Under the pieces are notes generated by a model that was not told the origin of the DNA, made no database searches, and saw only the letters and a program-made list of their open reading frames with translations. The position numbers were made by a program, and so were the translations under genes. Shown here in pieces: positions 2,258 through 3,731 of a stretch of 64,000 bases of DNA. The DNA is from Candidatus Contendobacter odensis Run_B_J11 (lineage in GTDB: Bacteria; Pseudomonadota; Gammaproteobacteria; Competibacterales; Competibacteraceae). Each line of letters starts with the position of its first letter. Positions within the stretch are counted from its first letter, which is position 1. The stretch is from positions 1-64,000 of the forward strand of contig NZ_CBTK010000257.1 of NCBI RefSeq assembly GCF_000531125.1, written 5' to 3'.

Positions 2258-2740
2258 ATGGCGAAAAAGAATCTGGAACTGGCGGTAGGTCTGTTCGTCG
2301 TGCTGGGACTGGCAGCGCTCTTCCTGCTGGCGCTTAAAGTCAGCGATATCGCCAGCCTCGGCGAGGACAAAGGCTATCGAGTATCGGCGCGCTTTGAGAA
2401 CATTGGCGGCCTCAAGGTTCGTGCGCCGGTCACCTTGGGCGGAGTGCGGATCGGGCGGGTGGTGGGTATTGACCTCGATCCGCAACGCTACGAAGCCGTG
2501 GTCACCTTGTCCATTGATCCCCGCTATGATCATCTGCCTGAAGATTCCAGCGCCAGCATTCTGACCTCTGGTCTGCTGGGCGAACAATACGTTGGATTGG
2601 AACCGGGGGGGATGGACAGCGCTCTCAAGAACGGCAGCACCCTCAAGCTGACCCAATCGGCGCTGGTGCTGGAGAAACTGATCGGTCGGATGGTCACCAA
2701 CGCCGCTTCGGGCGATCCACCACCGGCCAAGACGCCCTAA
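2258..2740 (+). CDS. mlaD: MlaD, MCE-domain substrate-binding subunit
   Basis: MlaD forms a periplasmic hexameric MCE ring anchored by one N-terminal helix and passes lipid between MlaC and the permease. The 160-residue product starts MAKKNLELAVGLFV and has a single membrane segment (about residues 8-27). The MCE core follows (RFENIGGLKVRAPVTLGGVRIG), with GLLGEQYVGLEPGG and the C-terminal LVLEKLIG helix. The gene begins 2 bp after mlaE. The usual next gene, mlaC, is separated from it here by a ~380 bp insertion-like element rather than a few bases. Confidence 0.95.
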   Translation: MAKKNLELAVGLFVVLGLAALFLLALKVSDIASLGEDKGYRVSARFENIGGLKVRAPVTLGGVRIGRVVGIDLDPQRYEAVVTLSIDPRYDHLPEDSSASILTSGLLGEQYVGLEPGGMDSALKNGSTLKLTQSALVLEKLIGRMVTNAASGDPPPAKTP

Positions 2741-3119
2741 GTCAACTACCCCGCCCTAAAGGGCGAGGCTTGTGGCGACAGTGCGGCAAGCCCAGGTTGA
2801 CCAGCCTAAGCCCGCCTCACCGGGAAGTTGAAAAGGGCTACGTTGCGTAGAGGTTCAAGACCTACCTTGGGATGCTTCCTCAGTCCCAGGCTCTAGAAGT
2901 CCCGGTTGCAGACACGCATTGGGTAAGCACGAAACGGATCAGGACGTAATGCCGCTACGCAACATGGGCGAGGGGAGCGAGCCGCAAGGCTCCGTTACCA
3001 GACCCTTACGGGTTGACGGCCGGGAAAGACCGGCACCTAACATCAAAAGCGGACCGTGCTTTGCACGGTTCGCTCTACCTCCCCGGCCTAAAGGCTGAGG
3101 TTTCTCGCGGAGAATCTTG
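2741..3119 (+). mobile_element. Gene-less structured element between mlaD and mlaC: probable solo HEARO / omega-RNA (IscB-type) or IS200/IS605-type remnant
   Basis: This 379 bp stretch lies between genes that are normally almost contiguous and contains no convincing reading frame. It begins directly after the mlaD stop and ends directly before ATGA, the mlaC start. Both ends carry a small hairpin with a CCTAAAGG-type loop: CCCGCCCTAAAGGGCGAGG near 2750 and CCCCGGCCTAAAGGCTGAGG at 3081-3100. The interior has many short G/C-rich inverted repeats (for example CCGTGCTTTGCACGG), typical of a folded RNA. As I recall, HEARO elements (omega-RNA plus iscB) insert immediately upstream of ATGA or GTGA, and copies lacking iscB exist. 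No iscB or tnpB is present here. The element now supplies the GGAG ribosome-binding site of mlaC at 3109-3112. The family assignment is from memory; a TnpB-family end pair is the main alternative. Confidence 0.55.
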
Positions 3120-3731
3120 ATGAAGAAAACGATTGCTCTTGGATTGCTTCTGCTGCTGTTGAGCAGCAGCGCCCTCTGGGCTGCCGCCCGTGCGCCCCAG
3201 GATGTGGTGCAGGACACCTCGGCGCGGATGGTGGAAGCCCTGCGCAAGAATCGGGCGACGCTCGACCGTGATCCAGGTCGGCTGTACGAACTGGTCAATC
3301 AGATTGTGCTGCCAAATTTCGATTTCGAGCTGATGTCGCGCTGGGTGCTGGGCCGGGCTTGGCAACAGGCCACGCCGGAACAGCGCCGCAGCTTCACCGA
3401 GGAATTCCGCATCTTGCTGGTTCGTACCTATGCCAAGGCGCTGCTGGAATATGCCAACGAGGAGATTCGAGTGTTACCACAACCCACGGGGGCGGACGGC
3501 AACGAAACCACGATCAGGACCGAGGTTAAACCAAGAACCGGTCAGCCGATTCCGATCAATTACAGCATGCATCTTGGCAATGACGCCTGGAAGGTCTATG
3601 ACGTGACCGTCGAAGGGGTCAGTCTGGTCACCAACTATCGCGGCACCTTTGCCAGCCAGATTCGTAGCAATGGCCTGGATGCCGTCATTGCGGATCTACG
3701 GCAACGCAATAGCATCCCGGGCGGACGCTGA
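3120..3731 (+). CDS. mlaC: MlaC, periplasmic phospholipid shuttle
   Basis: MlaC carries phospholipid across the periplasm between the MlaA complex and MlaFEDB. The 203-residue product has a Sec signal peptide (MKKTIALGLLLLLLSSSALWA, cleavage likely after ALWAAA) and the MlaC/Ttg2D fold region with VLPNFDFELMSRWVLGRAW and KVYDVTVEGVSLVTNYR. I place the start at ATG 3120, with GGAG 7 bp upstream; an in-frame TTG lies immediately before it. The stop overlaps the mlaB start by one base (TGATG). Both the ribosome-binding site and the 5' flank lie within the inserted element. Confidence 0.93.
   Translation: MKKTIALGLLLLLLSSSALWAAARAPQDVVQDTSARMVEALRKNRATLDRDPGRLYELVNQIVLPNFDFELMSRWVLGRAWQQATPEQRRSFTEEFRILLVRTYAKALLEYANEEIRVLPQPTGADGNETTIRTEVKPRTGQPIPINYSMHLGNDAWKVYDVTVEGVSLVTNYRGTFASQIRSNGLDAVIADLRQRNSIPGGR

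Follow-up and report, generated by a model that had tools for sequence, protein, structure and literature searches.

A solo HEARO (omega-RNA) element between mlaD and mlaC in Candidatus Contendobacter odensis and the location of related elements ahead of start codons

In the window, i.e., the whole analyzed stretch of 64,000 nucleotides from a contig of Candidatus Contendobacter odensis Run_B_J11, the gap between mlaD and mlaC is filled exactly by a 379 bp segment of the plus strand, as indicated by the sequence and the list of open reading frames (Table 1). The segment begins with GTCAAC immediately 3' of the mlaD stop codon TAA (2738-2740) and ends at the ATGA with which mlaC starts; inspection of the open reading frames found no plausible gene inside it. 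The match to the HEARO RNA family of Rfam (RF02033) covers model positions 1-211 (cmscan, 120.5 bits, E 2.4e-24), exceeds the gathering score of 83 bits used as the cut-off, and is the only Rfam match within the 64 kb window. Hairpins with a CCTAAAGG core are present at both ends (2752-2765 and 3078-3100); they are subterminal imperfect hairpins of the IS200/IS605 type and are conserved among the solo elements. The fold of the element strand is far more stable than those of shuffled sequences (-166.7 vs -137.5 +/- 5.6 kcal/mol; z -5.2), and no sigma-70-like promoter was found within the element. A preliminary description made from the sequence alone had delineated this gene-less segment, its terminal hairpins and its junction with mlaC at 3119/3120, and had proposed a solo HEARO/omega-RNA-like identity; the boundaries proved exact and the full-length RF02033 match bears out the assignment.

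Table 1. Features of the mlaD-mlaC region (coordinates in the window)
Feature	Position	Strand	Basis
mlaD, left-flanking gene	2258..2740	+	named in the preliminary description, operon context; 3' end aligns with relatives upstream of mlaC
Predicted 16-nt guide GGCCAAGACGCCCTAA, the 3' end of mlaD	2725..2740	+	5'-guide rule of IscB omega-RNA; exact match nowhere else in the genome
Complete solo HEARO (omega-RNA) mobile element, 379 bp	2741..3119	+	ends by alignment with 17 other full-length solos; homologues C206 and C35 in the same genome
HEARO / omega-RNA scaffold, RF02033	2741..2983	+	cmscan, 120.5 bits, model positions 1-211
Left-end hairpin CGCCC-TAAA-GGGCG	2752..2765	+	sequence; minimum-energy fold; pairing maintained by compensatory changes (helices 3-4)
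Solo-type 3' region including hairpin GCCGGGAAAGACCGGC, occupying the place of iscB in longer copies	2984..3119	+	conserved in solos of two families; helix 16 paired in 97.8% of cells
Right-end hairpin with CCTAAAGG loop	3078..3100	+	sequence; helix 18
GGAG, Shine-Dalgarno-like	3109..3112	+	7 nt 5' of the mlaC ATG; sole such site remaining
ATGA: insertion target, TAM-like motif, mlaC start codon	3120..3123	+	sequence; MlaC Pfam match
mlaC, right-flanking gene	3120..3731	+	PF05494, E 4.6e-58

In the genome (319 contigs, 4.6 Mb), the HEARO model yields five full matches that exceed the cut-off, in addition to three weaker matches. Three copies are full-length solos of 360-379 bp (C206, C35 and the mla copy on C257), and two contain complete iscB genes (C14 and C280). 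A search with the right-end motif, which yields 13 occurrences in this genome compared to none for a reversed-pattern control, adds a truncated iscB copy in front of accA (C24) and a damaged solo in front of a PCu(A)C gene (C12). Two further right ends, on C90 and C100, have three mismatches each and do not resemble elements of the HEARO kind. The IscB encoded in this genome extends through the HNH and RuvC-III regions and is similar to known IscB structures (best E 8e-41). Directly downstream of the mla copy, iscB is absent and mlaC follows instead; adjacency of iscB is required of a complete HEARO/iscB element, not of the RF02033 RNA family. Accordingly, the initial statement that no iscB is present stands for the 64 kb window only, given the genes on C14 and C280. 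The associated suggestion that the element depends on proteins encoded elsewhere fits an element that carries no nuclease gene in a genome with two iscB genes at other loci. Copies are present in relatives as well, whereas neither phages nor E. coli genomes gave any match.

When 18 solos of Competibacteraceae and of a second gammaproteobacterial family are aligned, they reveal a 3' region with the hairpin GCCGGGAAAGACCGGC that is common to the solos of both families and was not seen in the two iscB copies that were read in the C. odensis genome. Among the 79 predicted base pairs, 42 have changed on both sides, which exceeds all shuffled and slid controls (covariation score 0.391 vs 0.198 shuffled and at most 0.094 slid). 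In the second family, the numbers of HEARO matches per genome reach 124 (G154), 69 (G269) and 37 (G366), and the genome with 69 matches holds dozens of solos, many of them nearly identical, so the solo form multiplies as such.

In the relatives, the mlaD-mlaC junction is organized differently. The element is missing in front of mlaC in seven genomes of the same genus and in others of the family, and was found at mla in a single genome. The closest relatives have a leader of about 20-55 nt between the two genes, mostly with a motif resembling a ribosome-binding site, so that an ordinary mlaD-mlaC leader was rejected as the identity of the segment. Of the three outcomes that the preliminary description had listed as refuting (no covariance-model hit, no further copies, a spacer conserved in all relatives), none was observed. 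This type of leader of the relatives is missing in the window, where the element is flanked directly by the TAA of mlaD and the ATGA of mlaC and no SD-like motif is present in the left flank; therefore, the left junction of the mla copy is not that of a simple insertion relative to the relatives. Either the leader was already absent from the ancestor, or it disappeared during or after the insertion. With the native leader lost, the element is now the only leader of mlaC and, as originally suggested, provides its ribosome site; the GGAG near its right end is the sole SD-like site left. A clean empty site without target duplication is available for the sister copy C35, for which the sequence of relative G037 (L277) is contiguous across the junction, although this is not the empty site of the mla copy.

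Near the right end, UUCGC (3069-3073) can pair either with an upstream GCGGA, forming a strong hairpin (3049-3073), or with a GCGGA (3107-3111) that overlaps the SD. The SD-side helix 17 covaries. In the second family, a matching three-part layout is made of other letters (GGGACGG / CCGTCCCC / GGGGAC). This alternative pairing may be a translation switch or merely a DNA end structure.

Two ways in which the mla copy could be something other than a mobile solo element have to be weighed. The more remote one, which appears very improbable, is that a full iscB element lost its gene by internal deletion at mla: the genome does harbor two full iscB elements whose ends are the same, and degenerate copies occur, but the three solos of this genome are related to each other over their full length, one genome of the second family contains dozens of solos with many near-identical copies among them, and the conservation of the solo 3' region with GCCGGGAAAGACCGGC in another family argues against independent deletions. 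Because this region recurs across families, the mla copy, judged by its sequence, is not one decayed iscB element. Somewhat better, but still improbable, is the case for a sequence that has lost its mobility and is kept for the regulation of mlaC translation. Such a role would be compatible with the element being the only ribosome site of mlaC next to a missing native leader, and with the capacity of the covarying right-end helix 17 to cover the SD; however, the element is found at mla in one genome only, and the same right-end pairing occurs in solos located at unrelated genes. Given this latter occurrence, the pairing belongs to the element itself and may represent the DNA structure recognized by the transposase.

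The mla segment is very probably a non-autonomous, gene-less element of the IS200/IS605 type whose cargo is an IscB guide RNA (HEARO/omega-RNA). The full HEARO match, the defined ends, the multiple copies per genome, the precise junction at ATGA, the absence from this site in relatives and the empty site of the sister copy are all observed directly. Such an element would be moved in trans, as single-stranded DNA, by a Y1 TnpA that directs it to the complement of ATGA. The genome encodes Y1 transposases, none of them with ends matching those of the element, and no Y1 transposase match was found in G366, a genome with 37 HEARO matches that is listed as 98% complete. In G038, there are complete tnpA-tnpB IS605 elements (C69 and C180; L290 and L293), a candidate source of transposase for HEARO elements. 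Their right-end hairpin CCCCGCCCTAAAGGACGGGG-TCTTTCGC is of the same design as that of the mla element, whose host belongs to the same family, whereas their left end is GTTGACATCC and the junction is TGATAA instead of TGATGA. The comparison with IS605/TnpB ends proposed at the outset hence revealed a similar right end but not a shared left end or junction, nor a transposase with these ends in the genome itself.

In IscB omega-RNAs, the guide is located 5' of the scaffold, so the guide predicted for the mla copy is the 3' end of mlaD, in agreement with the preliminary description. The element RNA would lack a promoter of its own and would be made by read-through from the mla operon, with the 5' guide copied from mlaD; it would then load an IscB protein from one of the two iscB loci elsewhere in the genome. 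For copies with an intact left flank, the guide together with ATGA would designate the empty allele as a cleavage target and thereby favor persistence of the element. No second exact match to the guide GGCCAAGACGCCCTAA occurs in the genome, and the relatives share the same mlaD end with no NTGA after it; hence the mla copy may no longer home, and an empty allele in which ATGA adjoins a match to its guide probably no longer exists.

The right-end ATGA noted in the preliminary description for mla is confirmed, and is a start codon in most copies rather than at mla alone. All seven HEARO-type right ends of the C. odensis genome precede the ATGA start codon of a gene, namely mlaC, accA, cheB and the genes for a GATase, a DUF1269 protein, a probable secreted protein and PCu(A)C. 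With a pattern blind to the downstream sequence, each of the 23 places identified has ATG within 3 bases, and 22 have ATGA. Across Competibacteraceae, a start codon is located at 22 of the 25 junctions, a count obtained by visual inspection and supported by Pfam matches of ten proteins; Pfam domains start at residues 2-7 in SucC, Mdh, BioD, LeuB, AccA and CheB encoded after such junctions. When elements and ordinary ATGA are classified by one automatic rule, with approximate baseline gene calls and mostly draft genomes, start codons are assigned to 17/23 elements compared to 56/501 ordinary ATGA in this family (p=2.5e-11), and to 21/43 elements compared to 85/685 ordinary ATGA in two genomes of the second family. 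SD-like motifs are found in the left flank of 14 of 19 start-codon sites (vs 59/505, p=2e-9), which points to a location of the element between the SD and the ATG. Statistically, location between the host ribosome site and the start codon exceeds the chance expectation by far. The GTGA-type solos read in G154 are not at start codons.

The same placement is seen on plasmids whose hosts include Beta- and Gammaproteobacteria, Cyanobacteriota and Deinococcota: according to the RefSeq annotation, which was made independently of this analysis, the right end is followed without any gap by a coding sequence in 10 of the 21 annotated loci, two of which represent the same insertion; three of these loci are inside parA/parB or parM-type operons. 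In three plasmids, the iscB stop codon overlaps the next start (TGATGA). Partition operons appear to be used repeatedly, with HEARO/iscB elements separating parA from parB in plasmids of Trichormus and Deinococcus, and a solo located 3' of a parM-type gene in Allochromatium (L262, L266 and L193, respectively).

The excess of start codons could result simply from selection against insertions within genes, start codons as such not being favored. This explanation draws on the observation that about half of the copies in distant genomes are located elsewhere, mostly in intergenic regions, but it is rather unlikely because only 12 of the 96 non-coding ATGA in the window are start codons compared to 22 of the 25 junctions (binomial p about 2e-17, with approximate gene calls). 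These observations suggest that HEARO elements live by inserting immediately 5' of start codons in active genes. Integration before ATGA or GTGA was reportedly noted already in the original description of HEARO, and solo HEAROs are known. That the right-end ATGA usually is a real start codon is apparently new; this novelty is provisional, as the literature search that found no prior report of such placement had the original HEARO/IscB papers outside its coverage.

A more general proposal, offered tentatively and with somewhat less than even confidence, is that IscB/HEARO elements are dwellers of start codons. Under this proposal, ATGA would be a start codon plus A, the guide would derive from the host leader including the Shine-Dalgarno sequence, the RNA would come from the host operon, and the right end would re-supply translation, through either its own SD-like site or the TGATGA overlap with iscB, with solos using the same niche without a nuclease by means of their own 3' region. 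A site between SD and start would be transcribed in the right direction and would entail no loss of coding sequence, and the right end would restore downstream translation by GGAG/GGGG or by the overlapping iscB stop. IscB is considered to be ancestral to Cas9. Neither the choice of sites by IscB elements nor the source of their transcripts with a host-derived 5' guide is obvious, given that a promoter could only be located in host DNA; if the proposal is correct, placement between SD and start would answer both questions and would fit the NTGA target motif.

Among the known systems, the HEARO RNA (RF02033) is matched by the mla element over the full model, in the right junction at ATGA and in the presence of several copies per genome, but the mla element is not followed by iscB and has the solo-type 3' region instead. 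Standalone omega-RNAs, which can work with IscB in trans (PMC9581776), are similarly guide-RNA loci without an adjacent nuclease gene and with iscB elsewhere in the genome; compared to these, the ends, the empty site of a sister copy, the shared 3' region and the start-codon placement are additionally described here. The TAM of the DtIsrB nickase, NTGA (PMC9581776), includes the ATGA of the mla junction, whereas the C. odensis genome encodes IscB with an HNH region, not IsrB. Finally, a second gene-less element of ~380 bp is present in G000 (C271:21514, C82:2404 and C247:806; L143, L145 and L146), whose left end is close to GTTGACATCCTCCCCGCCC and whose right-end motif is similar. None of its three copies is clearly at a start codon, and it is possibly a solo guide RNA element of the TnpB type.
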